The translations under genes were made by a program, and so were the position numbers. A DNA stretch of 64,000 bases from Rhizobiales bacterium 62-17 (GTDB lineage: Bacteria; Pseudomonadota; Alphaproteobacteria; Rhizobiales; Beijerinckiaceae): positions 1,656,479 to 1,720,478 of the forward strand of contig MKVW01000009.1 of the NCBI GenBank assembly GCA_001898965.1, in the 5' to 3' direction. This document shows, one piece after another, positions 17,699 through 59,489 of this stretch (within the stretch, counting starts at the first letter, position 1; every line of letters begins with the position of its first letter). Under the pieces are notes generated by a model that was not told where the DNA came from, did no database searches, and saw nothing but the letters and a program-made list of their open reading frames with translations.

Positions 17699-17713
17699 CG
17701 ATCCAGGTGCGCC

Positions 17714-32945: not shown

Positions 32946-33113
32946 TTCTGCCGGTGACCCCAATTCCTTCTGCCATCCCCCTGTGTTAAAATGCTAAGAT
33001 CACGTTGATCTGATGGACGCTCCGTGGACGGCCCTCCAGTTTGGCGTTAAATGAAGGCAAAGGCCTCGGATAACAGGGGCCCGTTTGTGGACGGAAACAT
33101 CAGGGTCACTGTC

Positions 33114-34139
33114 ATGCACATTATCGATTCCCATTTTCATTGGTGGCCGCGCTCTGTTTTCGAAAAGCTGTGCAAGCGCACAGGTTTTCCCTCAGCTCAT
33201 GTGAACGAACGCGGCGGCTACACCGTCCGTCGTCATGCCGATGAGGCACATCCGCTGCCGAGCTGGAAGGAATGGCACGACCTCGACGATCAGCTCGCCC
33301 ATATGGATGGGCTTGGGCATCAGGTCGACGTCGTCTGCTCCATCGGTCCCATGTCGGTCTTTTTCTCGCAGCTTCCGGCCGAGGAAGGCCGCGACCTCGC
33401 CATGCACTGGAACGAGGAAATGGCCGGCGCGCAGCGCCGCTACCCCGGCCGTGTCTGGGCCAGCGCCGCCATTCCACTCGTCGATACCAAGATCGCGCTC
33501 GATGTTCTAGAACATGCGGTCGGCAAGCTCGGCCTGATGGGCGTCAATATTCCCGGCAGTATCGGCAGCGATGCGCGTATCGATGCGGAGCGGCTTGAAC
33601 CCTTCTATGCCCGGGTGGCCGAACTCGGCCTGCCGATGTTCCTGCATCCGACCGACGCCATCTTCGCCGATATGCTCGATGGGTATAATGGCGCTCTGCA
33701 TCTGAGCCTCGGCCGGGTGATCGAGGTCAGCGTGGCGGCCTCACGCCTTGTCCTGTCCGGCCTGATGGAGCGTCATCCCGGCCTCAAGGTGGTGATGTCG
33801 CACACCGGCGGCGCGCTGCCCTATCAGTCAGGTCGTATGGACAAGAACACCAAGGCCGCCAAGCTGCCGCGGCCGGCGAGCGAATATCTGCACCGCATGT
33901 ACACGGATACGGTGTCGCCCCATTCGGCAGGCATGAAATTCGCGATCGAATATTATGGCATCGACAATGTCATGTACGGTACGGACTATCCCTGCTGGGA
34001 TCCGGCCACCTGTCTGGCATTGCTGGAAGAGCTTAATCTGTCGGCGGAAGACAAGCAGAAGCTGTTCTATGACAACGCCCGCCGCATTCTGGGTCTCAAG
34101 GATCCGGTGGCGGACAAGAAGCTGGCCGCCGCCGAATAA
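33114..34139 (+). CDS. amidohydrolase of the aminocarboxymuconate-semialdehyde decarboxylase (ACMSD) class
   Basis: A 341-residue TIM-barrel amidohydrolase. The family metal motif HxH appears as DSHFHWWP near the N-terminus, followed by a metal histidine in LHPTDA, one in SHTGGALP, and the terminal aspartate in YGTDYPCWD. ACMSD-class members decarboxylate or hydrolyse cleaved-ring products, so a role in aromatic or heterocyclic breakdown is likely. ATG 33114 is preceded by AGGG at modest spacing; a frame starting at ATG 33051 is less well supported. A strong terminator follows. It is head-to-head in function, though convergent in direction, with the flavin monooxygenase and alpha/beta hydrolase genes. 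Confidence 0.85.
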   Translation: MHIIDSHFHWWPRSVFEKLCKRTGFPSAHVNERGGYTVRRHADEAHPLPSWKEWHDLDDQLAHMDGLGHQVDVVCSIGPMSVFFSQLPAEEGRDLAMHWNEEMAGAQRRYPGRVWASAAIPLVDTKIALDVLEHAVGKLGLMGVNIPGSIGSDARIDAERLEPFYARVAELGLPMFLHPTDAIFADMLDGYNGALHLSLGRVIEVSVAASRLVLSGLMERHPGLKVVMSHTGGALPYQSGRMDKNTKAAKLPRPASEYLHRMYTDTVSPHSAGMKFAIEYYGIDNVMYGTDYPCWDPATCLALLEELNLSAEDKQKLFYDNARRILGLKDPVADKKLAAAE

Positions 34140-34194: not shown

Positions 34195-35481
34195 TCAGGC
34201 GCCGCGCGCCACGCCCAGTGGCGTCATCGGCCGCTCGTCCAGGGTGACGGGCGCTTCCGAAGAGGCCGGTCGCTCGATCAAGTAATCCTTGGGCGGTTCG
34301 GGCGGCACGTCACCGAATTGGCCTGAGATCGTCGTGTCGGGAAATTCCGCCTGCAAGCGCGGATAGACCTCGCGAGCGAAGTTGCGGATGCCTTCCACCG
34401 TATCTTCGTGATCAAGGAAGCCGGCCTGGCCCATGATCAGCAGATGTCCGTAGCCGCCGACATATTGGTAGTGGCGCTTGATCTGCTGATAGACCTGCTC
34501 GGGCGTGCCGGCCATCAGAAAGCCCGCCTTGATAGCCGCTTCGACGCTGGCACTCTTGGCGAATTCACTCAAAGGGTGGGTGGCGCCGCGCAGCATCGCC
34601 ACGTTGGCCGCCACCGGCACATAGCCGGGCGGATTGACGAATTGCGGCGCGACCTTGTTGGCGGTGACATACCACAGCAGTTTCTCGGCACCGCGATAAG
34701 CTTCCTCTTCCGTCTTGCCGACATAGACGATGGCGCAATAGGCGAGACGATCGATGGGCACGTCCTGGCCACGGCCGGCGGCGCGCCAGCCGGCGCGATA
34801 GGCTTCGTAGATCTTGCGGGTTTCGCCAAAGCCGGTGAGGAAGGTCGCCTGCACATAGCCTTTCTCGCCCACTTGCCGCGCACCGCTCGCACTGGTCGTG
34901 CTGATCCACATCGGCGGATGCGGCGTCTGATAGACGCGCGGCCAGATGTTGATGTTGCGATGATGGAAGAAGCGACCCTCATGGCTGACGGGACCGTCAT
35001 GATTGGTCCACGCCTTGACGACCAGGTTGATTGCCTCCCAAAAGCGCTCGTTCATGCGCACCGGATTGCTGTTGGCCGGCGAGATTTCGTAAGGCACGCC
35101 GCGCACGAAGCCGACTTCAAGCCGGCCTTTCGACAGGATATCGATCATCGCCATTTCTTCGGCGATACGCACCGGCTGGCGCCGGTTGGCCGCCGGATTG
35201 CCGAGGATCAGCAGGCGCGCTTTGGACGTCAGCCGCGCCAAGGCGGCGAGCATCAACGGCGCGGCCGGATCGACGCAGGTGGCGGTCTGATGATGCTCGT
35301 TGAGCATGAGGTTCAGACCTTCCTCCTCGGCGATTTGCCACTCCATGAGGTAGCGGTCGTAGAGCGCGGCGCCTTTGTGCGGATCGTAATGCTTGTTGGG
35401 CAGGGTGACGCGGATCGACGGATAGCTGTCGGCCGGCGGCAGATAGGGATAAGCGGTTTCGGTGAAATGCCAGGCTTGCAT
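34195..35481 (-). CDS. LLM-class flavin-dependent monooxygenase, module A
   Basis: A 428-residue bacterial-luciferase-like oxygenase that uses reduced flavin from a separate reductase. Family elements: the LNEHHQT motif (NEHH), RIAEEMAMID and LEVGFVRG. The C-terminus extends about 60 residues past the usual barrel. It is 43 bases downstream of an alpha/beta hydrolase gene, exactly as in the pair at 59654-61599, where the LLM protein has NEHHSNA. The two likely oxidise a substrate and hydrolyse the product, but the chemistry is unknown. GGGAG precedes ATG 35481. Confidence 0.88.
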   Translation of the reverse strand: MQAWHFTETAYPYLPPADSYPSIRVTLPNKHYDPHKGAALYDRYLMEWQIAEEEGLNLMLNEHHQTATCVDPAAPLMLAALARLTSKARLLILGNPAANRRQPVRIAEEMAMIDILSKGRLEVGFVRGVPYEISPANSNPVRMNERFWEAINLVVKAWTNHDGPVSHEGRFFHHRNINIWPRVYQTPHPPMWISTTSASGARQVGEKGYVQATFLTGFGETRKIYEAYRAGWRAAGRGQDVPIDRLAYCAIVYVGKTEEEAYRGAEKLLWYVTANKVAPQFVNPPGYVPVAANVAMLRGATHPLSEFAKSASVEAAIKAGFLMAGTPEQVYQQIKRHYQYVGGYGHLLIMGQAGFLDHEDTVEGIRNFAREVYPRLQAEFPDTTISGQFGDVPPEPPKDYLIERPASSEAPVTLDERPMTPLGVARGA

Positions 35482-35524
35482 GGTGAGCTCCCGAGATCAG
35501 AGGGCCGGCGTGGCCGGGCAAATG

Positions 35525-36295
35525 TCAGGACAGAAATTCGAGAACGGTTTTGGCGAACACCGCCGGCTGTTCCACGTGTGGCACATGCCCGGCTTCGGGG
35601 ATGGTGACGACTTTCGCGCCCTTGATCAGCCCGGCGTAGCCATCCACGTAGTCGGCACTGACGAGACCGTCGCTGGCGCCACGGACGAACAGGGTGGGGC
35701 TGGTGACGCGATAGAGCCGGTGCAGCAGTTTGGGATTGTGCATATAGGGCTCCCAAACATAGAGCGCCGTACTTTCTTTGTTGCGCATCATGATGGTGAG
35801 TTGTTCGTCCGAAAGCGCCGCCGGATCGAAGGGGAAGCGCGCGGGTTCATGATAGATGAGCTTTGGCACTTCGCTGGGCGGCATCACATAGATGTCGGGG
35901 ATATCGAGCTTGTCCGCCGGCCCGATCTTGATGCCGACAGGCCCGACCAGCACGGCCTTGCTGAACCGTTCCGGTGCCTTGGTCAGCATTTCGGCGGCGA
36001 TCCAACCGCCCATCGAACAGCCGATGATATCGACGGTGTCGAAGCCGCAGCGATCCATCAGATCGAGATAGAGATGGGCGACGTCGTCGACATTGTCGAT
36101 CCAGTCGGGCAGGGCCGAGCGGCCGAAACCCGGATGGGACGGGCAGAGCAGGCGCCGGCTTTCGGCGATCAGCGGCACATGCGGCTCGGCGGGATTGAAG
36201 CCGCTGGCTCCGTGCAAAAACAAAATGGGTTTTCCGGAACCTTGCTCGTGAACCTCGACCTCGACAGTTCCGAGCGTCATGACGGAGCGCTGCAC
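35525..36295 (-). CDS. alpha/beta hydrolase, module A
   Basis: A 256-residue hydrolase. Nucleophile elbow GCSMGG (serine), acid in GASDGL and histidine in AGHVPH complete the triad. The cap-and-lid region has HPGFGRS and LPDWIDNV, also found in the module B hydrolase at 59654 (HPGFGRS, MPEWLDNV), so the two are paralogues. C-C or ester hydrolysis of a cleaved-ring product is a common role for this group. Start GTG 36295 is five bases after GGGAGG; the later ATG 36280 is too far from it. Confidence 0.88.
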   Translation of the reverse strand: MQRSVMTLGTVEVEVHEQGSGKPILFLHGASGFNPAEPHVPLIAESRRLLCPSHPGFGRSALPDWIDNVDDVAHLYLDLMDRCGFDTVDIIGCSMGGWIAAEMLTKAPERFSKAVLVGPVGIKIGPADKLDIPDIYVMPPSEVPKLIYHEPARFPFDPAALSDEQLTIMMRNKESTALYVWEPYMHNPKLLHRLYRVTSPTLFVRGASDGLVSADYVDGYAGLIKGAKVVTIPEAGHVPHVEQPAVFAKTVLEFLS

Positions 36296-36467: not shown

Positions 36468-37247
36468 GTGGGAGAACGCCTGGTCAAATCGGCGTCGCGT
36501 GCCTTTGCGGTGATCGAGCTCTTCGCGCGTGTGCGGGCGCCGTTGCGCCTCAAGGACGTGGCGGCGGGGCTCGGCCATCCCGTCTCCAGCGCCGCCGCTC
36601 TGCTGAAAACCATGACCCAACAGGGCTATCTCGCCTTCGATCCGAAATCGCGCGCCTATATGCCGACCGCCCGCCTGCCGCGCCTGGTCAATTGGATCTC
36701 CTATGATGATTTCGAGGAAGGCGTCGTCGCCGAAGCGATGCAGCAGCTTCGGGCGCAATCGCAGGAAGGCGTGGTGTTGGGCACGCCTGTCGGCATCCAT
36801 CTGGAATATGTCCGCTCCCTGCGCGGCGTCAGCGAAGGGGTGCAGTTCTCCATTCCCACCGGCACACGGCGCGTGCTGATCCAGACCGGCATGGGCTGGC
36901 AGTTTCTCAGCCTGCGCCCGCAGGCTGAAGCGCTCGATGTCTACCGGCAGACCATGGCCGCCGGCGCGCTGGGTCGCGCCCTGTTTCCTGTCGAGAGTTT
37001 TCTGCAGCAGCTCGAAAGCCATCGCCATCTGGAAATCACCCTTTCCCGGGCGCGGGACCTGGTGGCACCCACGGCGCATTGGGACGGGGCCATGGCTTCG
37101 ATCCTCATCGAGACGCCCCCCGGCCATCGGCCGCTCGCGTTGGGCATTCCCGGTCCCACAGATCGGCTGGAGCGTCATCTGCCGGAAATATCGGCGCATC
37201 TGCGGGCAGCGGCGGAGCATATTCGCGTTGCTATCCGGGCAAGCTAA
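36468..37247 (+). CDS. IclR-type transcriptional regulator
   Basis: A 259-residue regulator with an N-terminal winged helix (KSASRAFAVIELFARVRAPLRLKDVA region, residues 6-32) and a C-terminal IclR/GAF-like effector domain. GTG 36468 is six bases after GGGAGGA (36456-36462). It sits divergent from the module A operon (hydrolase and LLM), and the palindrome in between makes it the likely regulator. The effector could be the aromatic substrate. It is followed by the D-2-hydroxyacid dehydrogenase in the same direction, which may belong to the same pathway. Confidence 0.88.
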   Translation: MGERLVKSASRAFAVIELFARVRAPLRLKDVAAGLGHPVSSAAALLKTMTQQGYLAFDPKSRAYMPTARLPRLVNWISYDDFEEGVVAEAMQQLRAQSQEGVVLGTPVGIHLEYVRSLRGVSEGVQFSIPTGTRRVLIQTGMGWQFLSLRPQAEALDVYRQTMAAGALGRALFPVESFLQQLESHRHLEITLSRARDLVAPTAHWDGAMASILIETPPGHRPLALGIPGPTDRLERHLPEISAHLRAAAEHIRVAIRAS

Positions 37248-37319
37248 AGCGATCCCCGTTGCGTCCGACAGGCAGACTGATACGGTGACGCCCGCAAAAA
37301 AATGGAGAGGTTGCGCCTA

Positions 37320-38273
37320 ATGACCCGCGTTGCAGTCACCACGCCCTATTTCGATTTCTATCCGCATCTCGTCGAGGAGATGAAACAGAAATATCCGGAC
37401 GTGAAATTCCGTTCCGATCGCAAGGTGCTCAGCGAAAGCGCGTTGATCGAATATCTGCAGGGCTATGATGCGGCGATCATCGGTCTTGACCGCTTCACCG
37501 ACAAAGTCTGCGCCGCCTTGCCGGACCTGAAGGTGATCTCGCTGATGTCGGCCGGAGCCGATCATATCGATCCGGTGATCCTGAAGAAGCACGGCAAGAG
37601 GATGTGGTGGGCGCCGGGCATCAACCGCATCTCCGTGTCGGAACTCGCCGTGAGCTACATGGTGTTGACGCTGCGGCGCATCCATTACTTCTCGTCGATC
37701 CTGCGGCGCGGCGAATGGAAGGGGCCGATCGGCTTCGGCGCCGATTTGCGCGGCCACACCGTCGGCGTGCACGGCTGCGGCTTCATCGGCAAGGAAGTGG
37801 TGAAACTGCTGCAGCCCTATGGCGTGAAAATCCTGGCGTCGGACCGGGTCGACATCTCCGATTTCTGCAAGGAGTGGAATGTCGAGAATGTCAGCGCAGA
37901 GGAACTCTGGGCGCGCTCCGACGTGGTGACGATCCATCTGTCGCGCAATGCGCAAACCATCGGCATGTATTCGGCCGCCGTGCTCGACAAGATGAAGAAG
38001 GGCGCCGTGCTCATCAATTGCGCACGCGGCGGCATGGTCGACGAAGTGGCCTTGAAGGAACGGCTGGAAAACGGCCAGATTTCCGGCGCCGCCTTCGACG
38101 TTTTCGCCATCGAACCGGCCAACGGCAACCCGTTGCTGGATGTGCCGAATTTCTTCGCTTCCCCGCATATTGGCGCCACCACCCGGGATTCCTGGGAAGC
38201 CATGCTGCGATCCGGCATCAGGGGGCTTGAGGAAGCCCGGATTTGGGAGCCGGGAACCTATCCGTTCGATTAA
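37320..38273 (+). CDS. D-isomer-specific 2-hydroxyacid dehydrogenase
   Basis: A 317-residue NAD(P)-dependent oxidoreductase. It has the Rossmann GxGxxG in HGCGFIGKE, the catalytic arginine in NCARGG, glutamate in the following helix (FAIEPAN) and histidine in SPHIGATT. Reduces a 2-keto acid to the D-2-hydroxyacid or the reverse. ATG 37320 follows GGAGAGG at good spacing; ATG 37302 would be a longer alternative. A strong hairpin terminator lies 68 bases after the stop. Substrate unknown. Confidence 0.9.
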   Translation: MTRVAVTTPYFDFYPHLVEEMKQKYPDVKFRSDRKVLSESALIEYLQGYDAAIIGLDRFTDKVCAALPDLKVISLMSAGADHIDPVILKKHGKRMWWAPGINRISVSELAVSYMVLTLRRIHYFSSILRRGEWKGPIGFGADLRGHTVGVHGCGFIGKEVVKLLQPYGVKILASDRVDISDFCKEWNVENVSAEELWARSDVVTIHLSRNAQTIGMYSAAVLDKMKKGAVLINCARGGMVDEVALKERLENGQISGAAFDVFAIEPANGNPLLDVPNFFASPHIGATTRDSWEAMLRSGIRGLEEARIWEPGTYPFD

Positions 38274-38382: not shown

Positions 38383-38459
38383 AGGGTGAACAAAGCAGCC
38401 TGAAGAGAGCGGATCGTGTATAGTTGCGACACGCCGGGTTTGCTCGTGGAGGGGACAGA

Positions 38460-40451
38460 GTGACCGCGTCGACCGCCGGTGCGCGATCCGCACCTGAGGC
38501 TGATACGTTTCCAAAACTTCTGCGCCGCAATGCGCGGCTGCGCGGCGCCCGGCCGGCCATGCGGTTCAAGGATCGCGGCATCTGGCAGACGTGGGATTGG
38601 GCCGCCGTTTACGACAATGTGTTGCGGCTGGCCCAGGGCTTGAAAGGGCTCGGCGTCAATCGTGGCGATAAAATCGCCATTGTCGGCGCCAATCGGCCGC
38701 GTCTCTACTGGGCGATCTGCGCGGCTCAGACCCTGGGCGCCGTGCCGGTGCCGGTCTATGCCGATGCGGTGGCGACCGAGCTGGCGCATGTCATCGACAA
38801 TGCCGACGTCGTCGTCGCTGTCGTGCAGGACCAGGAACAAGTCGACAAGCTGATCGAGCAGCGCGCGCGCCTGCCGAAACTGCGCCACGTTATCTACGAC
38901 GAAGAGCGTGGCCTGCGTGACTATGATCATGGCCGGTTGCATGCACTGGCTGGGCTGCTGGAGGCGGCACAGCAGGCGTTCGATCGGGATGCGACAGTCC
39001 GCGCCGCGATCGAGAATGAGGTGGACGCCGGTGCGGGTGCCGATATTTCCATCATGCTCTATACGTCGGGCACGACGGGCCGTTCCAAGGGTGTGATGTT
39101 GACGGGCAAAGGCTCGATCGACGCGGCCAGCGACACGGCGACTTTCGACAACCTGACCGATCGCGATGAAACCCTGGCCTATCTGCCGCTTGCTTGGGTC
39201 GGCGATCACTATCTCAATTACGCCCAGTCTTTTGTCGCCGGTTTCTGCATGGCCTGCCCGGAGAACGGTGAAACGGCGCAGCAGGATTCGCGCGAGATCG
39301 GGCCGACTTTCTACTTCGCACCGCCGCGCGTCTTTGAATCGCTTTTGACGCGCGTGATGATCCGCATGGAGGATGCCAGCGCGCTCAAACGGGGACTGTT
39401 CCACCATTTCATCGGCGTCGCACGTCAGTGGGGCGAGAAAATTCTCAACGGTGAGAAGGTGCCGTTGTGGGCTCGTTTGCATTACGGGCTTGGCGAAATC
39501 CTGATCTACGGACCGTTGAAGAACGTGCTCGGCTTCTCGCGCATCCGCGTCGCCTATACGGCGGGCGAAGCCATCGGCTCGGATCTGTTTTCGTTCTATC
39601 GTTCGCTGGGCCTCAATCTGAAACAGCTTTATGGCCAGACGGAAGCTTTCCTTTACGTGACCTGCCAGAAGGACGGCGACATCCGCGCTGACAGCGTCGG
39701 ACCGCCGGCGCCCAATGTCGACATTCGCATCGCCGAGAATGGCGAGGTACAGTTCCGTTCGCCGGGCATGTTCGTGGCTTATTACAAGGAAGCCGCCAAG
39801 ACGGCTGAGGCGATGACGGACGACGGCTATGTCAAAACCGGGGATGCCGGCATTTTCGACCCCGACGGCCATCTGCGCATCATCGATCGGGCGGCCGATG
39901 TCGGGAAGCTTGTCGATGGCGCGCTGTTCGCGCCGAAATATATCGAGAACAAGCTGAAGTTCTTCCCCAACATCAAGGAAGCGGTGGCTTTCGGCGACGG
40001 TCGCGATCACGTCTCTGTCATGCTCAATATCGATCTGACGGCGGTCGGCAACTGGGCCGAGCGGAACAACATTTCCTATGGCTCCTATCAGGAGCTCGCC
40101 GGCCATAAACAGGTCTATGACATCATCGCCGGTCACGTCGCCAGCGTGAATGAAGCTTTGGCGAAAGAGCCGATCATGGCAGGCGCGCAAATCCGGCGCT
40201 TCCTGATCCTGCACAAGGAACTGGATGCCGACGACGGCGAGCTGACGCGGACGCAGAAGGTGCGGCGTGGCTTCATCGCCGAGCGCTATGCGCCCCTGGT
40301 GACGGCGCTCTACGATGGCTCGCAGGAAGCGGATATTTCCACCGAAGTGACTTTTGAGGATGGGCGCAAGGGCATGATCTCGGCACGCGTCGCCATTCGA
40401 GATGCTGCCGTCGCGCCGGTTTCGCCTCCAACCGAACGACGGGCCGCATGA
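38460..40451 (+). CDS. long-chain/aryl acyl-CoA synthetase (AMP-binding)
   Basis: A 663-residue adenylate-forming ligase with the P-loop YTSGTTGRSKG, the AGEAIG region, YGQTEAF and GDAGIF motif. It activates a carboxylic acid to its CoA thioester with ATP. Length suits fatty-acyl CoA ligases, but the context (Liv transporter, PaaK-like ligase) also fits aromatic acids. GTG 38460 is six bases after GGAGGGG. It overlaps the LivG-like gene by four bases and begins the operon. Its position at the head of a branched-chain/aromatic acid import cluster is widespread in Hyphomicrobiales. Confidence 0.93.
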   Translation: MTASTAGARSAPEADTFPKLLRRNARLRGARPAMRFKDRGIWQTWDWAAVYDNVLRLAQGLKGLGVNRGDKIAIVGANRPRLYWAICAAQTLGAVPVPVYADAVATELAHVIDNADVVVAVVQDQEQVDKLIEQRARLPKLRHVIYDEERGLRDYDHGRLHALAGLLEAAQQAFDRDATVRAAIENEVDAGAGADISIMLYTSGTTGRSKGVMLTGKGSIDAASDTATFDNLTDRDETLAYLPLAWVGDHYLNYAQSFVAGFCMACPENGETAQQDSREIGPTFYFAPPRVFESLLTRVMIRMEDASALKRGLFHHFIGVARQWGEKILNGEKVPLWARLHYGLGEILIYGPLKNVLGFSRIRVAYTAGEAIGSDLFSFYRSLGLNLKQLYGQTEAFLYVTCQKDGDIRADSVGPPAPNVDIRIAENGEVQFRSPGMFVAYYKEAAKTAEAMTDDGYVKTGDAGIFDPDGHLRIIDRAADVGKLVDGALFAPKYIENKLKFFPNIKEAVAFGDGRDHVSVMLNIDLTAVGNWAERNNISYGSYQELAGHKQVYDIIAGHVASVNEALAKEPIMAGAQIRRFLILHKELDADDGELTRTQKVRRGFIAERYAPLVTALYDGSQEADISTEVTFEDGRKGMISARVAIRDAAVAPVSPPTERRAA

Positions 40452-41266
40452 ACGAAACGATGGTGCAGTCTCAACCGGTTGTCGCGTCGGCCTCGGCGCC
40501 GGAAAAATTGCTGACCGTCGAGAATGTGACGCTCTCCTTTGGAGGTGTGCGGGCGCTCAGCGACGTATCGTTTGACATCCGCAAGAGCGAAATCCGCGCC
40601 ATCATCGGCCCCAATGGCGCGGGCAAGACGTCGATGCTCAATTGCATCAACGGCTTCTATCATCCGCAGGCTGGCCGCATCACCTTCAAGGGCAAGATGC
40701 GCCAGCGCATGCGCCCCTATGATGCCGCTTTGCAGGGCATTGCCCGTACATTCCAGAACGTCGCTCTGTTCAAGGGTATGACGACGCTCGATAACATCCT
40801 CACCGGCCGCACCTTGAAGATGCACCGCAGTTTTTTCTGGCATCTCTTCCGTCATGGGCCGGCGATGAATGAGGAGATTGAACACCGCAAATATTGCGAA
40901 GAGATCATCGACTTTCTCGAGATCGAACATATCCGCAAGACGCCGGTCGGGCGCCTGCCTTACGGTTTGCAGAAGCGGGTCGAACTCGGCCGGGCGCTGG
41001 CCATGCAGCCCGATCTTCTCCTGCTCGATGAGCCGATGGCCGGCATGAATCTCGAAGAGAAGGAAGATATGTGCCGCTTCATTCTCGACGTGAACCGCCA
41101 GTTCGGCACGACCATCGCTTTGATCGAGCATGACATGGGCGTGGTCATGGACATCTCCGACCGCGTCGTCGTGCTCGAATATGGCCACAAGATCGCCGAC
41201 GGGTCGCCGGACGAGGTCAAGGCGGATCAACGCGTGATCGATGCTTACCTTGGTGTATCGCACTGA
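40448..41266 (+). CDS. livG: LivG-like branched-chain ABC ATP-binding protein
   Basis: A 272-residue ATPase of the HAAT class. Walker A GPNGAGKTS, signature region LPYGLQKRVELGRAL, Walker B LLLLDEPMAGMN and the switch histidine in LIEHDMG. It overlaps both neighbours (ATGA). With LivF, LivH, LivM and LivK it makes a complete importer for branched-chain or aromatic amphipathic carboxylates. Confidence 0.93.
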   Translation: MNETMVQSQPVVASASAPEKLLTVENVTLSFGGVRALSDVSFDIRKSEIRAIIGPNGAGKTSMLNCINGFYHPQAGRITFKGKMRQRMRPYDAALQGIARTFQNVALFKGMTTLDNILTGRTLKMHRSFFWHLFRHGPAMNEEIEHRKYCEEIIDFLEIEHIRKTPVGRLPYGLQKRVELGRALAMQPDLLLLDEPMAGMNLEEKEDMCRFILDVNRQFGTTIALIEHDMGVVMDISDRVVVLEYGHKIADGSPDEVKADQRVIDAYLGVSH

Positions 41267-42222
41267 TGGACATTCTCTACAGCATCTTCGTCGATCCGTT
41301 CATGCAGATGGGCAGCGCGCCAGATCTGCTCGTCCAGACGCTATGGGAAGGATTCGTCGGTGGCATTCTCTATGCGCTGATCGCGCTCGGCTTCGTGCTG
41401 ATCTTCAAGGCCTCGGGCGTCTTCAATTTCGCTCAAGGGATCATGGTGGTTTTCGCCGCGCTGACCCTCGTCGGCCTCTACGAGAAAGGCGTGCCGGCCT
41501 TTCTGGCCCTGGCGATCACCATCGGCGTCATGTTCGTTCTGGCTTATGCCATCGAACGCGTGGTGTTGCGGCCGCTGGTCAACCAGCCCGACATCATTCT
41601 CTTCATGGCTACCTTCGGGCTGACTTATCTTTTGATCGGCCTCGGTGAGGCGATTTTCGGTGGCAACCCCAAGGTTATGATCGCCGAGCAGCTCTATCTG
41701 CCGAAGGGCGCGATCGATCTGAAGATTCTGGGCGGCGTCGTCACCCTACAGAAGATCGACATCGCCGCCGCGATCATCGCCCTCGTCATGATCGGGGCTC
41801 TGTCGCTCTTTTTCCAATATACCCGTATCGGCCGCGCGTTGCGCGCTGTCGCCGACAGCCATAAGGCGGCACTGTCCGTCGGCATCTCCTTGAACCAAAT
41901 CTGGGTCATCGTCTGGTTCATCGCCGGCGTCGTGGCTTTGATCACCGGTATCATGTGGGGCGCGCGCTCAGACGTGTCCTTTGCCTTGCAGGTCGTGGCC
42001 CTCAAAGCGCTGCCCGTGTTGATCCTTGGCGGCTTCACGTCGGTCCCTGGTGCCATCGTCGGTGGTCTGATCATCGGCATCGGCGAGAAAATTGGCGAAT
42101 TCTATTGGGGGCCTTTGGTCGGCGGCGCCACGGAGAGCTGGCTCGCCTACTGTATCGCCCTCGTCTTTCTCATGTTCCGGCCGCAAGGCCTGTTTGGTGA
42201 GCGTATTATCGAACGCATTTGA
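41266..42222 (+). CDS. livH: LivH-like branched-chain ABC permease
   Basis: A 318-residue permease with about eight helices and the family pattern GFVLIFKASGVFNFAQG and GIMWGARSDVSF near the end. One of two unlike permeases in the HAAT class. It starts on the base where LivG ends, so the three genes of this run are tightly coupled. Confidence 0.93.
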   Translation: MDILYSIFVDPFMQMGSAPDLLVQTLWEGFVGGILYALIALGFVLIFKASGVFNFAQGIMVVFAALTLVGLYEKGVPAFLALAITIGVMFVLAYAIERVVLRPLVNQPDIILFMATFGLTYLLIGLGEAIFGGNPKVMIAEQLYLPKGAIDLKILGGVVTLQKIDIAAAIIALVMIGALSLFFQYTRIGRALRAVADSHKAALSVGISLNQIWVIVWFIAGVVALITGIMWGARSDVSFALQVVALKALPVLILGGFTSVPGAIVGGLIIGIGEKIGEFYWGPLVGGATESWLAYCIALVFLMFRPQGLFGERIIERI

Positions 42223-42230
42223 GGTGTCTG

Positions 42231-43310
42231 GTGTTCTATCGGGAAGCAGGACAGTTCAAGACCAGTTATGCCGCCGATATGGCGATCTTTCCGATCCTGC
42301 AGGATCGGATCGGCCTCGCCGTCATTCTCGCCATCGCCTTCATCGCCATTCCGCTCTTCGGCAGCAATTTCCTCATTCAGACGGTGATGATCCCGTTCCT
42401 AGTGTTCGCGCTCGCCGCCATTGGGCTGAACATTCTCACCGGTTATACCGGCCTCATTTCTCTCGGTTCCGGCGCCTTCATGGGGGTAGGAGCTTATGCC
42501 TGCTATAAATTGACGACCATTTTCCCGGGCGTGAACATCATTGTCTGGATTCTCGCGTCCGGTTTCTTCGCCGCCGCAATCGGTGTCGTCTTCGGCCTGC
42601 CATCCTTGCGCATCAAGGGCTTTTATCTGACGGTGGCAACCCTGGCCGCGCAGTTTTTCCTGCAATGGAGCTTCGTGCGCATCCCCTGGCTCTACAACTA
42701 CAACGCCTCGGGCGCCATTGAAGTGCCGCAGCGTCTGCTGGCCGGCATCCCGGTAACGGGTGCCAATGCCACACCGGTGACGCGCTATCTGGTGCTGCTG
42801 TCCATCGTCATTCTCCTCACCTGGATTGCCTCCAATCTCGTTCACGGCCGGATCGGCCGCAGTTGGATGGCGGTGCGCGACATGGACATTGCCGCCGAAC
42901 TGATGGGCATCCGCCTACTGCCGGCGAAACTTCTGTCCTTCGCCGTGTCGTCCTTCTACTGCGGTGTGGCCGGCGCCTGCATGATGTTTCTCTGGTATGG
43001 CGGTGGCGAAGCCAATGATGCCTTCAACATCAACCAGAGCTTTACCATCCTGTTCATGGTGATCATCGGCGGCTTGGGCAGCATCATCGGCTCTTATTTT
43101 GGCGCGGCCTTCATCTCGATCCTGCCGACGGCGCTGAAATTCGGATTGCCCGCCATGGGCATCGCCTTGAGCGGGCCGGTCGCCGAACATCTCAACTATA
43201 TTATTCTGGGCGTTTTGATCCTTTTCTTCTTGATCGTCGAGCCACACGGACTGGCGCGGCTGTGGCAGGTCGGAAAACAGAAACTGCGCGTCTGGCCGTT
43301 TCCATATTGA
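42231..43310 (+). CDS. livM: LivM-like branched-chain ABC permease
   Basis: A 359-residue second permease, with GYTGLISLGSGAFMGVGAY and GLPSLRIKGFYLTVATL typical of LivM. GTG 42231 gives the start FYREAGQFKTSY found in close family members; an upstream TTG (42219) would lie before the LivH stop. It is preceded by GAGGTG. Confidence 0.9.
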   Translation: MFYREAGQFKTSYAADMAIFPILQDRIGLAVILAIAFIAIPLFGSNFLIQTVMIPFLVFALAAIGLNILTGYTGLISLGSGAFMGVGAYACYKLTTIFPGVNIIVWILASGFFAAAIGVVFGLPSLRIKGFYLTVATLAAQFFLQWSFVRIPWLYNYNASGAIEVPQRLLAGIPVTGANATPVTRYLVLLSIVILLTWIASNLVHGRIGRSWMAVRDMDIAAELMGIRLLPAKLLSFAVSSFYCGVAGACMMFLWYGGGEANDAFNINQSFTILFMVIIGGLGSIIGSYFGAAFISILPTALKFGLPAMGIALSGPVAEHLNYIILGVLILFFLIVEPHGLARLWQVGKQKLRVWPFPY

Positions 43311-43352
43311 CGGCGCGGCTAGGCGCAAAGGGTGTAGCGAGGAGGGAATGCA

Positions 43353-44684
43353 ATGAAAAAATCAGCATTGGCATTGGGTCTCGTGGTTGGCGCCCTGGTG
43401 GGCACGCCGGCACTTCACGAGGCATCGGCGCAAGAATCGGTCTATGTGCCGCTATTCACCTACCGCACCGGCCCCTTTGCCGGCTCCGGCATTCCGATCG
43501 CCGACGGCATGCGTGACTATCTCGAAATGCTGAACCAGCGCGACGGCGGCATCGGCGGCGTGAAGATCGTCATCGAGGAGTGCGAAACCGGTTATGACAC
43601 CAAGAAAGGTGTCGAATGCTACGAGGCGGTGAAGGACAAGAAGCCGGTACTGACGAACCCGTATTCGACGGGCATCACCCTGCAGCTCATTCCGCGTGCG
43701 TCAGTCGACAAAATTCCCATGCTGTCCATGGCCTATGGCCTCTCCGCTTCCGCCGACGGCACGGTCTTCCCGTGGATATTCAACCCGCCGGCGACCTATT
43801 GGGACGGTGCTTCCGTCATGGTCACCTATATGGCGCAGCAGCTCGGCGGCTTCGACAAGCTGAAAGGCAAGAAGCTCGGTCTCATTCATCTCGACGCGCC
43901 GTTCGGCAAAGAGCCGATCCCGCTGCTGGAAAACCTCGCCAAGGAATATGGCTTTGAGCTGAAGCTCTATCCGATTGCCGCTGCCGATATGCAGAACCAA
44001 AGCGGCACGTGGTTGGCGATCCGTCGCGACAGGCCCGATTTCATCTACAACCAAGGCTTCGGCGCCATGAACCCGACGGCGGTAAAAGAGGCGATCCGCA
44101 ATAACTATCCGGTCGGCAAGATGGTCGGCGTGTGGTGGGCCGGCGGCGACGACGACGCCCGCGGCGGTGGTGCCGAGGCCAAGGGTTACAAGGCTCTGAG
44201 CTTCAATCAGACCGGCGTCGACTATCCGGTCATGCAGGACATCATCAAACATGTCTTCGACAAAAAACTGTCGAAGGTGGAAAACCGCAATCGGATCGGC
44301 GAAGCCCTTTATAACCGAGGCGTTTACAACTCCATGTTGATTGCTGAGGCGATCCGCACCGCCCAGCGGATCACCGGCAAGAAAGTGGTCGACGGCGCCG
44401 ATGTGCGGCGCGGCTTGGAAGGCCTCGACATCACTGAAGCGCGCTTGAAGGAACTTGGCATGGAGGGCTTTGCGGCGCCCGTGCGGGTCACCTGCGCCGA
44501 TCACAACGGCCACAACAAAGCTTTTGTGGCTGAATGGGACGGCGGCAAATATGTGAAGGCGTCGGACTGGATCGAGCCCATCAAGAACAAGGTGCGTCCG
44601 CTGATCGAGGCCGCCGCGAAGGAATATGCCTCGAGCAACACCGGCTGGCCGAAGCGCAGCGAAGCCTGCGACAAACCGAGCTGA
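43353..44684 (+). CDS. LivK-like substrate-binding protein
   Basis: A 443-residue periplasmic protein with a Sec signal (cleavage near ASAQES at about residue 27). The mature part has the LivK features: YRTGPFAGSGIPIADGMRD, GGVKIVIEECE, with the paired cysteines of EECETGYDTKKGVECYE likely forming a disulfide. Ligands of close relatives include branched amino acids, phenylacetate or benzoate. GGAGGG precedes ATG 43353. A hairpin separates it from the LivF gene, which probably raises its level over the membrane subunits. Confidence 0.92.
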   Translation: MKKSALALGLVVGALVGTPALHEASAQESVYVPLFTYRTGPFAGSGIPIADGMRDYLEMLNQRDGGIGGVKIVIEECETGYDTKKGVECYEAVKDKKPVLTNPYSTGITLQLIPRASVDKIPMLSMAYGLSASADGTVFPWIFNPPATYWDGASVMVTYMAQQLGGFDKLKGKKLGLIHLDAPFGKEPIPLLENLAKEYGFELKLYPIAAADMQNQSGTWLAIRRDRPDFIYNQGFGAMNPTAVKEAIRNNYPVGKMVGVWWAGGDDDARGGGAEAKGYKALSFNQTGVDYPVMQDIIKHVFDKKLSKVENRNRIGEALYNRGVYNSMLIAEAIRTAQRITGKKVVDGADVRRGLEGLDITEARLKELGMEGFAAPVRVTCADHNGHNKAFVAEWDGGKYVKASDWIEPIKNKVRPLIEAAAKEYASSNTGWPKRSEACDKPS

Positions 44685-44694
44685 TCAGCGGCAC

Positions 44695-44726
44695 GCCCTC
44701 CCGGCCTGGCCGGGAGGGCTTCTCTT
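44695..44726 (+). terminator. hairpin between livK and livF, likely partial terminator
   Basis: A perfect 10-bp stem (44695-44704 with 44710-44719), five-base loop and a short TTCTCTT tail. It sits 10 bases after the binding-protein stop, a common place for a stabilising or attenuating hairpin that keeps the binding protein in excess. Confidence 0.65.
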
Positions 44727-44742
44727 CCATACAGGTGAAGCC

Positions 44743-45564
44743 GTGACAGACGATACGCAGACCGATGCTATCCTGGCCGTGAACAACATCGAGGTCATCT
44801 ACGATCACGTGATCCTCGTGTTGAAAGGCGTCTCTCTGGTTGTTCCGCGTGGCGGCATTGTCGCTTTGCTGGGCGCCAATGGCGCAGGCAAGACGACGAC
44901 GCTGAAGGCCATCTCCAATTTGCTGCGCGCCGAGCGCGGCGAAGTGACGAAAGGCTCGATCGAGTTCGAAGGTACGCGCGTCGATCGCCTGTCGGCGAAC
45001 GAGCTGGTGCGCCGGGGCTGCATCCAGGTGATGGAAGGCCGCCATTGCTTCGGTCATCTCTCCATCGAGGAAAACCTGCTGACAGGCGCCTTCACCCGCC
45101 GCGACGGGCGTGCCGCGATCGCCCGCGATCTCGAAGCCATTTACGAATATTTTCCGCGTCTCAAGCAACGCCGCAGTTCCATGGCCGGCTATACGTCGGG
45201 TGGAGAACAGCAGATGTGCGCGATCGGCCGTGCGATGATGTCGCGGCCGAAAATGATCCTGCTCGACGAGCCGTCCATGGGTCTCGCGCCGCAGAGCGTC
45301 GAAGAGATTTTTGAGATTGTAAAAAGTCTCAATGCGAAAGAAGGCGTGTCGTTTCTCTTGGCGGAACAGAACACCAGCATCGCGCTGCGTTACGGGAGCT
45401 GGGGCTACATCCTTGAAAATGGCCGGGTTGTTCTTGACGGCGATGCGCAACAATTGCGTGACAATGAGGACGTAAAAGAATTCTACCTCGGAATCTCAGG
45501 CGCCGAGCGCAAGAGCTTCCGGGATGTGAAGCATTACAAACGTCGCAAACGTTGGCTTGCATGA
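44743..45564 (+). CDS. livF: LivF-like branched-chain ABC ATP-binding protein
   Basis: A 273-residue ATPase with Walker A GANGAGKTT, signature TSGGEQQMCAIGRAM and Walker B MILLDEPSMGLAP. Start GTG 44743 follows CAGGTGAAG. The C-terminus extends about 25 residues past the standard fold, ending KRRKRWLA. Last gene of the transporter, followed by a hairpin. Confidence 0.92.
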   Translation: MTDDTQTDAILAVNNIEVIYDHVILVLKGVSLVVPRGGIVALLGANGAGKTTTLKAISNLLRAERGEVTKGSIEFEGTRVDRLSANELVRRGCIQVMEGRHCFGHLSIEENLLTGAFTRRDGRAAIARDLEAIYEYFPRLKQRRSSMAGYTSGGEQQMCAIGRAMMSRPKMILLDEPSMGLAPQSVEEIFEIVKSLNAKEGVSFLLAEQNTSIALRYGSWGYILENGRVVLDGDAQQLRDNEDVKEFYLGISGAERKSFRDVKHYKRRKRWLA

Positions 45565-50826: not shown

Positions 50827-51795
50827 TCACGCGACGCCGCTGATGAGGCCGATGGCCCGCAGCACGCCTTCGGGATCGGCGACGCCCTTGCCGGCGATGT
50901 CGAAGGCGCTGCCGTGGCCCGTGCTGGAGAAAAGTGCCTTGCCGCCGATCGAGAGAGCAGAGGCATGGCGTCCGGCGACGAGTTTCACCGGTACATGGCC
51001 CTGGTCGTGGTACATGGCGACGAAACAGTCGATATCCTTGCGCCCCAGCATCAAATCGGCGCCAACCGGGCCTTCCACTTGAAGGCCATCGGCCTGGAGC
51101 CGCGCGACAGCCGGCTTGGTGATGCGCTCGTCATCATCGCCGAACAATCCATCTTCGCCCGCATGGGGATTGATGCCGAAGACGCCGATGCGTGGTTTGG
51201 CGATGCCGAGCTGACGCAAGGCTGCGTCGGCGGTGCTGGCTGCTGCCACGACGAGATCGGGTGTCAAGCGGCCTAAGGATTTCGATAACTGCTCGTGCAA
51301 GGTGACGTGAACGATGCGCAAGCCGCCGCCGATCAGCATCAGAAACACCTCATCCTCGGTGAGGCCGGAGAGTTCGGCGATCAGGCCGGGATAGCCGGAA
51401 AAAGCGATGCCGGCGGCATTGATGGCGGTTTCGTTGTGCGGGCAGCCGATGATGCCGCGCGCTTGTCCGGCGCTGACGGCAGCCATCGCGGCGCGGAGAT
51501 AGGCAACGGTCGCACGGCCAGCCTCGGGATCGACGCGGCCAGGTGCAAAATGCTTTTGCGGCAGGGCATCGACGGCGAGCAGGCGAATGCCGGCCCTGTC
51601 CGACGATATATCCAGGATCGGCAGCGTCGGCGCGACGAGCTTGCCGTAATGTTCCACCACGTAACGATCGCCGACCAGCACGACCGGGGTGCTTTTGGTT
51701 TCAAGCGCATGGGCGGCGGCCTTGACGGCGATTTCGGGGCCGATGCCGTTTGGGTCGCCAAGGGTGACGGCGATGGGCAACATGGTCGCGCTCAC
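50827..51795 (-). CDS. PdxA-family dehydrogenase, likely TphB-like cis-diol dehydrogenase
   Basis: A 322-residue PdxA-type NAD-dependent enzyme: TLGDPNGIGPE at the start, metal histidines in GCPHNET and YHDQGHVPVK, and DGLFGDDD. The family includes PdxA (vitamin B6) and TphB, which oxidises the cis-diol of terephthalate. Its neighbours are both subunits of a ring-hydroxylating dioxygenase on the same strand, so a TphB-like role is the better call; PdxA itself is usually near ksgA. The GTG start at 51795 overlaps the beta-subunit stop, an ATG at 51783 is the alternative. Confidence 0.82.
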   Translation of the reverse strand: MSATMLPIAVTLGDPNGIGPEIAVKAAAHALETKSTPVVLVGDRYVVEHYGKLVAPTLPILDISSDRAGIRLLAVDALPQKHFAPGRVDPEAGRATVAYLRAAMAAVSAGQARGIIGCPHNETAINAAGIAFSGYPGLIAELSGLTEDEVFLMLIGGGLRIVHVTLHEQLSKSLGRLTPDLVVAAASTADAALRQLGIAKPRIGVFGINPHAGEDGLFGDDDERITKPAVARLQADGLQVEGPVGADLMLGRKDIDCFVAMYHDQGHVPVKLVAGRHASALSIGGKALFSSTGHGSAFDIAGKGVADPEGVLRAIGLISGVA

Positions 51796-52271
51796 AGCGG
51801 GATCGCCAGCAAAGTGTCGAAGCGGGAGCTGTCGCAGACGACGATGCGTTCGACGATCTTCGGCGCCTCGCCCTTGAGGTTCCAGATATCGAGATAGCGG
51901 CCGGTCGCATAAAGATCGGTCGTGCCATCTTGCATGATGCGCGCCACCATGAATGGCGTTTCCGTGCGCAGGCCGGCAGACGTTTGGCCAAGAAGCGCCG
52001 GCATGCCCAGCAGATGGCGATAGGCTTGCCGTTCGTAGATGTTGGCTTCGCGCAGCGCCGAAATCCGGTCCGTCAGCATGCCGCGTGAATTGGCGAAGAC
52101 CACGGAGGCTTCATAGCCATCGCGATGGCTGGCCGCCGAGGTGATGCGATAGAGGCAGGCTTCCTCGAAGAAGGCCGGCCAGTCCTCCAGCCTGTCGTCG
52201 TCGATACAGCGCGCATAGTCCGATTGCGCGCGTGCGATAGCGAAGAAATAATCGTTGTCGATGTTGGACAT
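51792..52271 (-). CDS. ring-hydroxylating dioxygenase beta subunit
   Basis: A 159-residue beta subunit of the NTF2-like fold, seen in YFFAIARAQSDYARCIDDDRLEDWPAFF, with the conserved WP in the first helix, and GRYLDIW. It forms the structural trimer of Rieske dioxygenases. The ATG at 52271 has only a weak ribosome-binding site. A longer reading frame to 52445 overlaps the alpha gene and is not used. It is 14 bases downstream of the alpha subunit gene. Confidence 0.88.
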   Translation of the reverse strand: MSNIDNDYFFAIARAQSDYARCIDDDRLEDWPAFFEEACLYRITSAASHRDGYEASVVFANSRGMLTDRISALREANIYERQAYRHLLGMPALLGQTSAGLRTETPFMVARIMQDGTTDLYATGRYLDIWNLKGEAPKIVERIVVCDSSRFDTLLAIPL

Positions 52272-52285
52272 GGGCTTTGTAAAAC

Positions 52286-53551
52286 TCAAATTCCAGTATG
52301 GGCGCGCCAGGCTTTCCAGAAGCCGCGAATCGAGGCTTCGGTAACACGGCTCTCGCTGCTCTCGGCGGTCGAGCCGCCCATCTGCAGGATGGCTTGTTCG
52401 TGCGAGGCCGCCCGCACGCCACGCTGCACGAAGCCGCCGACGCATCCGTCCTCCATCGAGATGAAGCCGGCGGGTCCGATCAGATTGGCCTGTTTCAGCC
52501 GCGTCAGCCGCTGTTCCGGCGTATCGGTCTCGAAGCCGAGCAGGGTCCAGTGCAGATCCGTGCGATCGGGCCCGCGCGGCACCACCTGACGGATGGCGAT
52601 GCTGTTCTGGATCTGCTGCAGGACGAAAGTCGGGAAGACGGACAGAATCTGCAGGGTCACATCGTCGTTGAATTCGTCGAACCCCTGCAACAGAGACGGA
52701 TCGGCGAGACGGTATTTGCTGTCGGAGCGAATTTTCTGCTGCGCATATTCGCCGCCCGCCGTGTTCGTCTTCCGGTCGACGGCGGAATAGCTGATGTGAT
52801 GGCCGCCGGTTTCGTCGACGACGATGGCGCCTTTCTGCGACAGGCGGTTCAGTTCGAATGTGGTGAAGAACAGATGCAGGATGCTGGCGTGGTAGGAGTC
52901 CTTGACGTTCTCCACATAGAGCTTCCAGTTGTTGGGCAGCACCTGCGTGTAACGTCCGAGCACCACGGGCTTGCGGCCGGCGAGCACGCGGCCGATCCTC
53001 GGTTCGATCTCGGGGCCAAGCCAGCTCTTGAAATCGGGCGCATCGGCGCTGAACGAGCCGAAGACGAGACCGTGCAAGGTCGTGATCTTCAGGCGACGCG
53101 GCCCATGCTCGGAGATTTTGAACTCCGGCGGCATGCCGCCTTTGCCCTTCACGCCTTTTTGGAACGCGACGCCGGTGAGCTTGCCGGTGAGATCATAGGT
53201 CCAGGCATGGTAGACGCAGGCGAAATCCTTTTTGCCTTTGCCCTTCGCGTCGAGGCAGATCAGCGCGCCGCGATGGGCGCAGCGGTTTTCGAAGGCATGA
53301 ATCGCGCCCTCGTTGTCGCGCGTCACGACAACCGGAGCATCGCCGACGAAGGTGGTCATGAAATCGCCGCCCGCGGCGATGTCCGCTTCCAGGCAGAGAT
53401 AGTGCCACACGGGCCCTTGGAAAATGGCTTCCTGTTCGCGGGCATAAACGTCGTCGCGCTGGAACACCCAATAGGGAACACGGGTAAACCCTTGTCCCGG
53501 CCAAGTGGGCATTCCCTCCACGCTGCGTTCGAGCTCGGCTTGTTGGCTCAT
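52286..53551 (-). CDS. ring-hydroxylating dioxygenase alpha subunit
   Basis: A 421-residue catalytic subunit. Rieske cluster: Cys91, His93, Cys112, His115 (CAH and CVYH). Mononuclear iron: His221, His226 in YHASILH and Asp368 in SMEDG; Asp218 bridges to the Rieske site. The insert [10 protein letters not shown] resembles the anthranilate/salicylate-5-hydroxylase/ortho-halobenzoate group. It dihydroxylates or hydroxylates an aromatic acid. The ferredoxin and reductase are not encoded here. ATG 53551 follows AAGGAAAAA. Divergent from the gentisate-type dioxygenase, which supports a salicylate to gentisate route, but the PdxA-like gene instead favours a cis-diol intermediate. Confidence 0.93.
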
Positions 53552-53723
53552 TGTTTTTCCTTGCCTTGGCGTTGCCGCCCCACCGCATATAAGCCTTTGC
53601 CATGCGGCCAAGTCAATGTTGGCCGGCGGACTCAAGGTCATGTTGACAAGGTGGAAACCCTGACTTCATGTCTTGGCGGAAGCCGGCCTGTAGAATGACC
53701 GGAAACAATCGGGAGGATGCGTG

Positions 53724-54926
53724 ATGACCCAGCCACAGCCCTCGCGTGCCGTTCCCACCGACGCGCGCGCCGCCATGGAAGCGCTCAACGCCGAGGCCGG
53801 CAAGCTGAATATCTGGTTGCGCACCCAGGCCAATGCGCCGGCGCAGCGACCTTGGTTCAAGGAGACGGGATTGGTTCCCGCCGGCAAGTTGGCGCAGGGT
53901 CGTGTTGCCGCCGCGCAGATGAAAGCCTTGCCGCATCTGTGGAAGTGGCGCGAGATTTCACCTTATCTCGACCGCATCGCCGACGTTGCCCGCACCGCCA
54001 ATATTTCGCCGATCGAATTCGCCGATCGGCAGCAGTTCCTCCTCACCAATCCCGGCCTTGCCGGCCGCTTGCAGGTGACGGCGACGCTGCGCTGTGCCGT
54101 TTCCATCTATAATTCCGGCGACCTGGCACCGGCGCATATGCATTCGCCCAACGCCAGCCGCACCATTCTGTCACGCAAGGGTGGTTATACCACCGTGGAA
54201 GGCGAGCGCTGCGAAGCCGAGCGCGGCGATATCATTCTGACGCCTAACGGCACCTGGCACGATCACGGCAACGATTCGAACGAGCCGGTCACCTGGATCG
54301 ACACGCTCGACTGGCCGGTCCTTGAATTTCTCGATCTCATCTGGCTTGACGAAGACATGCCAGACGCGCCGGCCAATGCACGGGTGCAGAAGCAGAGCCT
54401 GTCGGCAGGCCATTCGCAGCGCCTCTATGGCCAGGGCGGTTTGGTGCCGCGCTTTGCCACCACGGCGCGGGGCATCGGCCATGAAACCAGCCCGCATATT
54501 CAGTATCGCGGCAAGGACATCGTGGCGGCGCTGACAGCGCTACGCGGCGAGGCTGGCGATCCCTATGAAGGCGTTTACCTCGACATCGTCAATCCGGTGA
54601 ATGGCGCCTCCTTGTTTCCGACGGTCGACTATGGCGCGCAATTGCTGCGCGCCGGCGAGGAAACGCGCTTCAAGCGCGAAACGGCCAGCACGGTTTATGT
54701 GGTCATGCAGGGGCGGGGACAGACGGAAATCGCCGGCACCACTTACGACTGGGAAGAAAATGATATCTTCGTCGTGCCGAACTTCTTGTGGCGCCGCCAT
54801 GTGAACACGGGCAGCACGGATGCGGTGCTTTACACCATGTCGGATGCGCCCTTGATCCAGAAGATCGGGCAGTATCGCGCCCAGGGCAAGAACGAGAAGA
54901 ATGAGACGATACAAATCGTCGCGTGA
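53724..54926 (+). CDS. gentisate 1,2-dioxygenase-like double cupin
   Basis: A 400-residue bicupin ring-cleaving enzyme. First-cupin metal histidines 138 and 140 in HMHSPNASR and 179/181 in WHDHGN; the second cupin sits in the last 120 residues. Family members cut gentisate, 1-hydroxy-2-naphthoate or salicylate directly. GGGAGG precedes GTG 53721 and ATG 53724; ATG is preferred. A FAH hydrolase three genes on would open or hydrolyse maleylpyruvate or fumarylpyruvate. Two TTT binding proteins lie between. Confidence 0.9.
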   Translation: MTQPQPSRAVPTDARAAMEALNAEAGKLNIWLRTQANAPAQRPWFKETGLVPAGKLAQGRVAAAQMKALPHLWKWREISPYLDRIADVARTANISPIEFADRQQFLLTNPGLAGRLQVTATLRCAVSIYNSGDLAPAHMHSPNASRTILSRKGGYTTVEGERCEAERGDIILTPNGTWHDHGNDSNEPVTWIDTLDWPVLEFLDLIWLDEDMPDAPANARVQKQSLSAGHSQRLYGQGGLVPRFATTARGIGHETSPHIQYRGKDIVAALTALRGEAGDPYEGVYLDIVNPVNGASLFPTVDYGAQLLRAGEETRFKRETASTVYVVMQGRGQTEIAGTTYDWEENDIFVVPNFLWRRHVNTGSTDAVLYTMSDAPLIQKIGQYRAQGKNEKNETIQIVA

Positions 54927-54937
54927 GGGAGGGAACC

Positions 54938-56908: not shown

Positions 56909-56920
56909 GAGGAGAATGGT

Positions 56921-59430: not shown

Positions 59431-59489
59431 TAAATATGAGGAAGGCTCCCAATTATATCCACATTTGAGCCATAAAATTGAAAATCAGC

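Follow-up and report, generated by a model that had tools for sequence, protein, structure and literature searches.

The stretch of DNA analysed here, 64,000 nucleotides of Rhizobiales bacterium 62-17 and referred to below as the window, contains at two places a gene for an alpha/beta hydrolase adjoining one for a luciferase-like monooxygenase (LLM). The pair of copy 1 lies at 34195-36295 and that of copy 2 at 59654-61599. The locus raises the question of whether the two enzymes form a functional module and, if so, what reaction such a module may carry out. The features of both loci are collected in Table 1.

Table 1. Features of the two loci (window positions) and pairs of the whole genome
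Feature	Position	Strand	Remarks
Amidohydro_2 (ACMSD superfamily) enzyme	33051..34139	+	PF04909, 117 bits; convergent with LLM copy 1
LLM class FMN-dependent monooxygenase, copy 1	34195..35481	-	428 aa; Bac_luciferase PF00296, 135 bits
Alpha/beta hydrolase, copy 1	35525..36295	-	256 aa, GTG start; PF00561/PF12697 (Abhydrolase_1/6), 80/73 bits
Perfect 16-bp palindrome TTACACATATGTGTAA	36428..36443		Copy 1 divergent promoter region
IclR-family regulator, copy 1	36468..37247	+	PF09339/PF01614
D-2-hydroxyacid dehydrogenase family protein	37302..38273	+	PF02826, 169 bits; downstream of IclR
AMP-binding ligase and LIV-type ABC transporter genes	38424..45564	+	PF00501, PF13458, PF00005
Copy 2 neighbourhood	50827..58858		PdxA-like dehydrogenase, ring-hydroxylating oxygenase beta and alpha, gentisate-dioxygenase-like cupin; two TctC receptors, FAA hydrolase, NMT1 receptor
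MarR-family regulator, copy 2	58877..59350	-	PF01047, 46 bits; divergent from pair
Perfect 14-bp palindrome TTTCCATATGGAAA	59501..59514		Copy 2 intergenic region
Alpha/beta hydrolase, copy 2	59654..60433	+	259 aa
LLM class monooxygenase, copy 2	60433..61599	+	388 aa; PF00296, 154 bits
Six pairs of the genome	C9:1690676 (copy 1), C9:628363, C9:1716950 (copy 2), C3:745163, C9:1846694, C7:58151

Two homologous pairs and their surroundings

An earlier, sequence-only reading of this DNA had described the same ordered pair with shared sequence blocks at both sites, and our results bear this out. Transcription runs from hydrolase to LLM in both copies, with a gap of 43 bp in copy 1 and with the LLM start codon overlapping the hydrolase stop codon in copy 2. 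In BLASTP comparisons the two hydrolases are 35% identical over 254 columns (E 2e-56) and the two LLMs 34% identical over 370 columns (E 6e-65), both hydrolases contain the HPGFGRS and P-W-DNV blocks, and both LLMs exceed the PF00296 gathering score of 27.9 bits several times over (Table 1). The members of the two pairs belong to the same two subfamilies.

The same reading gave each pair its own regulator and its own palindrome, which also proved correct: an IclR-family gene with TTACACATATGTGTAA accompanies copy 1 and a MarR-family gene with TTTCCATATGGAAA copy 2, each regulator being divergent from its pair. IclR keeps this adjoining, divergent placement at four loci (L100, L101, L102 and L105). 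The copy 1 palindrome recurs unchanged in the nearest species (L100) and was not found in the more distant species compared, which makes it a plausible operator with local conservation only; it is probably the IclR operator, and the copy 2 palindrome, of which an imperfect second copy lies at 59415-59432, is probably the operator of MarR, both assignments being putative.

Downstream of IclR, the 2-hydroxyacid dehydrogenase gene keeps its position in two related species. The LIV-type set beyond it comprises an ATPase, two permeases, a binding protein (43353-44684) and an ATPase, and synteny of the ligase with LivGH is preserved at loci L189 and L192; ligase and transporter are probably responsible for uptake and activation of the copy 1 substrate. 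On the other side of copy 1, an ACMSD-type amidohydrolase had been proposed. The gene does adjoin the pair and does belong to Amidohydro_2, but the ACMSD label applies at superfamily level only, since the NCBIfam ACMSD equivalog gave no match for it and ACMSD, though among its nearest solved relatives (4e-24), is outscored by an uncharacterised amidohydrolase (4e-26). Genomes G022 and G030 share the gene order Liv genes, ligase, 2-hydroxyacid dehydrogenase, IclR, hydrolase, LLM, amidohydrolase, whereas farther relatives keep the pair alone, with or without IclR. The amidohydrolase stays beside copy 1 at L100 and L101 and adjoins the pair at L022, so that its linkage to copy 1 is confined to the closest species and one or two other loci. 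Because the order beyond the pair and IclR is lost farther away, the amidohydrolase is accessory rather than core.

The region upstream of copy 2 (50827-58858) is an aromatic acid cluster that is partly conserved at L076, where two different hydrolase-LLM pairs, one of them copy-2-like, stand back to back and divergent (6976-11218). Elsewhere in the window, an NMT1-type receptor gene lies beside one for a TauD-family dioxygenase (16565-18538), suggesting a separate cluster for uptake and oxidation of alkanesulfonates or related compounds. Rfam gave no match within the window.

Pairing across genomes and co-divergence of the partners

The sequence-only reading was right that the module recurs, and its count of two was too low, since the genome holds six pairs. 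A whole-genome search with copy 1 returned 18 LLM and 18 hydrolase matches, and each of the six best LLMs adjoins a homologous hydrolase, with the hydrolase first in four pairs and the LLM first in two. Pairing was surveyed at 80 loci of GTDB species, picked by LLM alignment alone, together with the own loci, and a same-strand hydrolase adjoins 86 of the 93 LLM places found there, upstream in 79. When the hydrolase cut-off was tightened and further loci were added, pairing was seen at 127 of 144 LLM places (own 6/6, GTDB 78/87, plasmid 8/9, other genus members 35/42), which extends the pairing to many genomes. The intergenic gap is below 60 bp in most pairs, and no fusion of LLM and hydrolase was seen among the surveyed loci. 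Pair-bearing lineages include Alphaproteobacteria, Betaproteobacteria, Actinomycetota, Bacillota, Chloroflexi, Rokuibacteriota and Binatota, and on a haloarchaeal plasmid (Haladaptatus) LLM and hydrolase are found with one gene between them. The subfamily is nevertheless patchy, as only 2 of 150 genomes sampled across the phylum, own genome included, gave a strong LLM match.

Some plasmid copies have arrangements of their own. On plasmid p4 of Pukyongiella litopenaei (L124:249-24381), a complete module of flavin reductase, hydantoinase A/B, hydrolase, LLM, second hydrolase, peptide-type ABC transporter and LysR lies between two Tn3-family transposases and looks like a mobile catabolic transposon. 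A Neorhizobium petrolearium plasmid (L125:9165-14626) carries two tandem pairs, hydrolase-LLM and then LLM-hydrolase, which enclose genes for a GntR regulator and an NAD(P)H-dependent oxidoreductase, and the cluster on an Agrobacterium plasmid includes a gene of the aspartate/glutamate racemase family (L130:16862-17608).

The partners also diverge together. In a mirror-tree of 80 pairs, the patristic distances of hydrolases and LLMs correlate with r=0.84, a value reached by 0 of 2000 Mantel permutations (maximum 0.31). A cross-species correlation of this kind partly reflects shared species history, but the objection does not apply to the six own paralogs, which belong to one genome and for which the true partner assignment is the best of 720. 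Inheritance, duplication and diversification have affected the pair as a whole, and adjacency across genomes together with partner co-divergence identifies LLM and alpha/beta hydrolase as a two-gene functional module. That the copies share their chemistry and differ in their inputs, as had been suggested, is well supported by this co-divergence and by the differing regulators and uptake systems.

Among 34 genomes of the genus, the LLM subfamily is present in 33 (1 to 24 copies) and the hydrolase in all (1 to 17 copies). One genus member, G022, has adjacent counterparts for all six own pairs, and the distance from copy 1 to copy 2 is ~26 kb here, 29 kb in G022 and 28 kb in G030. Our literature search found no earlier description of the LLM and alpha/beta hydrolase pair; the enzyme superfamilies themselves are known, but within the literature searched neither the conserved pair with its co-evolving partners nor its multiplication in one genus has been described.

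Fold and family assignment

The AlphaFold model of the copy 1 LLM has a mean pLDDT of 87.6, with a low-confidence tail at residues 386-428. All of its top Foldseek matches in the PDB are LLMs, and the fold is a TIM barrel. The nearest are RslO1, Atu2307, a homodimeric bacterial luciferase and, ranked behind these three, the type II BVMO 3,6-diketocamphane monooxygenase (4uwm/5aec; for 4uwm_A, E 1.4e-18 and TM 0.63/0.73); the best solved LLM structure is ~21% identical. For the copy 1 hydrolase (pLDDT 97.5), the nearest folds are esterases and the meta-cleavage-product C-C hydrolases CumD, BphD, MhpC, HsaD and CarC. With fold neighbours that are all ~20% identical, structure does not assign the reaction. 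The NCBIfam equivalogs leave the pair proteins far under cut-off throughout, as with PcaD (3-oxoadipate enol-lactonase, TIGR02427), for which the hydrolases score 83 and 93 bits against 256. Both hydrolases have a full Ser-Asp-His triad with the nucleophile motif GCSMG/GTSMG; in copy 1, alignment columns place it at Ser94-Asp209-His237. The annotation of a Rhodococcus homolog had provided a lead to y4wF, which is associated with indole acetic acid genes in rhizobia, and this was set aside because R. tropici y4wF, at ~342 aa, is shorter than the subfamily.

Cofactor and flavin supply

CofD (PF01933) had no match in the own genome, while the control was positive in 10 of 14 genomes. No F420 is therefore expected in this host, which speaks against an F420-dependent oxidoreductase, and the LLM should use FMNH2; its use of FMN is accordingly a prediction from gene content. 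Several unrelated plasmid copies of the pair adjoin flavin reductase genes, namely those of Mycobacterium branderi (together with ribBA), Agrobacterium (together with ribB), Caballeronia, Rhodococcus pNit and Pukyongiella. In Haladaptatus, ribB and riboflavin kinase are linked to the LLM, and ribB or ribBA is also near the pair in Geodermatophilus, Jatrophihabitans and Alkalicoccus. Copies 1 and 2 have no flavin genes next to them; copy 1 in particular lacks an adjoining flavin reductase gene, the seven PF01613 (Flavin_Reduct) genes of the genome being elsewhere.

A third pair of the genome stands in one row with flavin-related genes, in the order RibBA, hydrolase, LLM, second hydrolase and 2Fe-2S/FAD reductase (C9:626482-631565; L016:7483-12566), an arrangement of a type that recurs in ~10 loci and parallels luxAB-luxG-luxH. 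A RibBA dedicated to this pair was considered and rejected, given that it is the only DHBP synthase of the genome. In Hyphomicrobiales, some of the ribBA linkage may for this reason be plain synteny, and the linkage counts only for copies on plasmids and in other phyla.

A proposed reaction and its alternatives

Our preferred reading, to which we give a probability of about one half, is that the pair encodes consecutive enzymes of one catabolic step, a Baeyer-Villiger-like oxygenation by the LLM with FMNH2 and O2, followed by opening of the ester or lactone by the hydrolase. In this scheme, a separate flavin reductase would supply FMNH2 to the LLM, the oxygenase half of a two-component monooxygenase, which would insert one oxygen atom from O2 next to the carbonyl of an organic substrate; this is probably an organic acid or a ketone of cyclic or aromatic type. 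The ester or lactone formed in this way would then be opened through the Ser-Asp-His triad, with each copy of the pair under its own regulator and tied to its own substrate-binding transporter. Homology, adjacency, co-divergence, the triad and a host without CofD are direct observations; the use of FMN, the reaction type, the order of the two reactions, the substrate class and the regulation by IclR and MarR are inferred.

In Caballeronia and Rhodococcus the pair has catechol-type dioxygenase genes as neighbours, as would be expected if cleavage of an aryl ester releases a phenol. The LLM of Caenibius is a type II BVMO that converts progesterone to testosterone acetate, an ester that then needs hydrolysis (PMC12239570), and Baeyer-Villiger reactions have been predicted for the LLM radiation of SAR202 (PMC5395668, PMC6946804). 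Neighbourhoods, fold neighbours and the Caenibius LLM, which among characterised LLMs is the closest in its logic (PMC12239570), point to conversion of a ketone to an ester or lactone with subsequent ester hydrolysis at least as well as to opening of a ring or amide. Against the Baeyer-Villiger reading, RslO1, Atu2307 and the luciferase all rank ahead of the diketocamphane enzymes as neighbours of the LLM, and there is no close characterised homolog among the NCBIfam equivalogs or the solved structures. The lack of a flavin reductase gene beside copy 1 and the loss of the nucleophile in some partner hydrolases also count against the scheme.

The sequence-only reading had suggested that such a pair could open heterocyclic or amide rings. 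In that case the LLM would act as an oxygenase on an N-heterocycle, a lactam or a cyclic amide, and cleavage of the ring-opened amide or formamide would fall to the hydrolase, as with RutA and RutD in uracil breakdown. An LLM with an alpha/beta hydrolase is indeed the RutA and RutD combination in outline, the Pukyongiella pair adjoins hydantoinase A/B genes, and an Amdase/maleate-isomerase-like gene lies ~2 kb from the C7 pair (L019:6353-7129). However, hydantoinase-type genes are near only 4-5 of 127 pairs, and both models miss their cut-offs widely: for RutA (TIGR03612), the copy 2 LLM reaches 19.5 bits against 498 and copy 1 is not listed, and for RutD (TIGR03611), the hydrolases reach 32 and 49 bits against 238.5. 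We do not favour ring or amide opening and regard it as unlikely.

A meta-cleavage-product-type C-C hydrolase acting on a ring-fission product, with the LLM at a separate step such as aldehyde oxidation, would agree with the fold neighbours of the hydrolase and with the FAA hydrolases, VOC-type protein, gentisate-like cupin and ring-hydroxylating oxygenase encoded in the window. The hydrolases, though, stay far below the equivalog cut-offs for BphD (33/59 bits against 462) and HsaD (54/89 against 400), only 2 of 127 pairs have the VOC-type gene nearby, and the tight co-divergence argues for one shared substrate path, all of which leaves this explanation decidedly unlikely.

It is also conceivable that hydrolysis is not the main role of the alpha/beta-hydrolase-fold partner and that it acts as a lyase, a cofactor-free oxygenase or a binding partner for which an Asp-His dyad suffices. 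In the alignment of paired hydrolases, Asp is kept in 80/80 and His in 79/80, while Ser is kept in 69/80 and replaced in the other 11 (Gly 5, Cys 3, Gln 2, Ala 1); mapped on the tree, this amounts to ~9 changes. Gly stands for Ser in two of the six own partner hydrolases, the C3 and C9:1845849 paralogs. The partner hydrolases with this exchange at L017:10306-11091 and L018:8808-9596 keep Asp and His. Loss of the nucleophile was rejected as a hallmark of paired hydrolases, because its frequency of 8/80 (10%; plus 3 Cys) equals the background of 3 with a non-nucleophilic residue among 27 unpaired hydrolases of the same genome. With the nucleophile lost in ~10% of pairs, plain serine hydrolysis cannot be the mechanism in all of them, but that match to the background and the full triad of copies 1 and 2 make a dyad-based partner improbable. 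Finally, coincidence between two very abundant superfamilies, conceivable in a genome with about 18 LLM and many hydrolase genes, is refuted by the top six LLMs each lying beside a homologous hydrolase, by pairing across phyla and by the mirror-tree result.

LLMs are abundant and mostly unassigned, and the presence of a hydrolase that co-evolves with them restricts the possible products to hydrolysable ones. Within one genus, the many copies offer a natural collection from which sequence could be related to substrate and, if the pairs oxidise recalcitrant cyclic compounds, the module would provide ready-made oxygenase-hydrolase cascades for biocatalysis.

Comparison with known systems

The type II BVMOs (diketocamphane monooxygenases, the Caenibius tardaugens LLM and AbmE2) share the class C LLM fold with the present enzymes, and their FMNH2-dependent two-component logic and an ester or lactone product that needs opening are what we propose for the present pair. 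The diketocamphane enzyme is ~18% identical to the LLM. Whereas the present LLM has a dedicated partner hydrolase gene, the published accounts of type II BVMOs that we compared describe none; the diketocamphane enzymes yield unstable lactones, and a lactone hydrolase was not detected there (PMC6352141). In pyrimidine degradation, RutA and RutD likewise bring an LLM together with an alpha/beta hydrolase in a single catabolic pathway, but they belong to separate subfamilies and their equivalog models miss the present proteins. The meta-cleavage-product C-C hydrolases (CumD, BphD, CarC and Cycloclasticus CCSP0084) share fold, triad and aromatic catabolic surroundings with the hydrolase at 18-24% identity; their partner is an extradiol dioxygenase, whereas here it is an LLM. 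In the lux operon, luxAB is accompanied by the flavin reductase gene luxG and the DHBP synthase gene luxH, and in several module copies outside the window LLM genes are similarly clustered with flavin reductase and ribB. Unlike these, copies 1 and 2 have no adjoining flavin genes, and the lux operon for its part is not known to have a hydrolase with such a role.

The SAR202 FMNO radiations (PMC5395668, PMC6946804) resemble the present case in lineage-specific LLM amplification and in the proposed oxidation of recalcitrant organic matter. A hydrolase partner gene is not reported in those two studies, whereas in the Hyphomicrobiales genus the hydrolase-LLM pair is the amplified unit. We tentatively suggest, with less confidence than for the reaction itself, that the pair is a general two-step cassette amplified in this genus and wired to varied regulators and substrate-binding proteins, a non-deep-ocean counterpart of the SAR202 radiation with the hydrolase as an obligate partner not previously described. 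If the pair does oxidise recalcitrant cyclic compounds, the genus would be a counterpart to marine SAR202.
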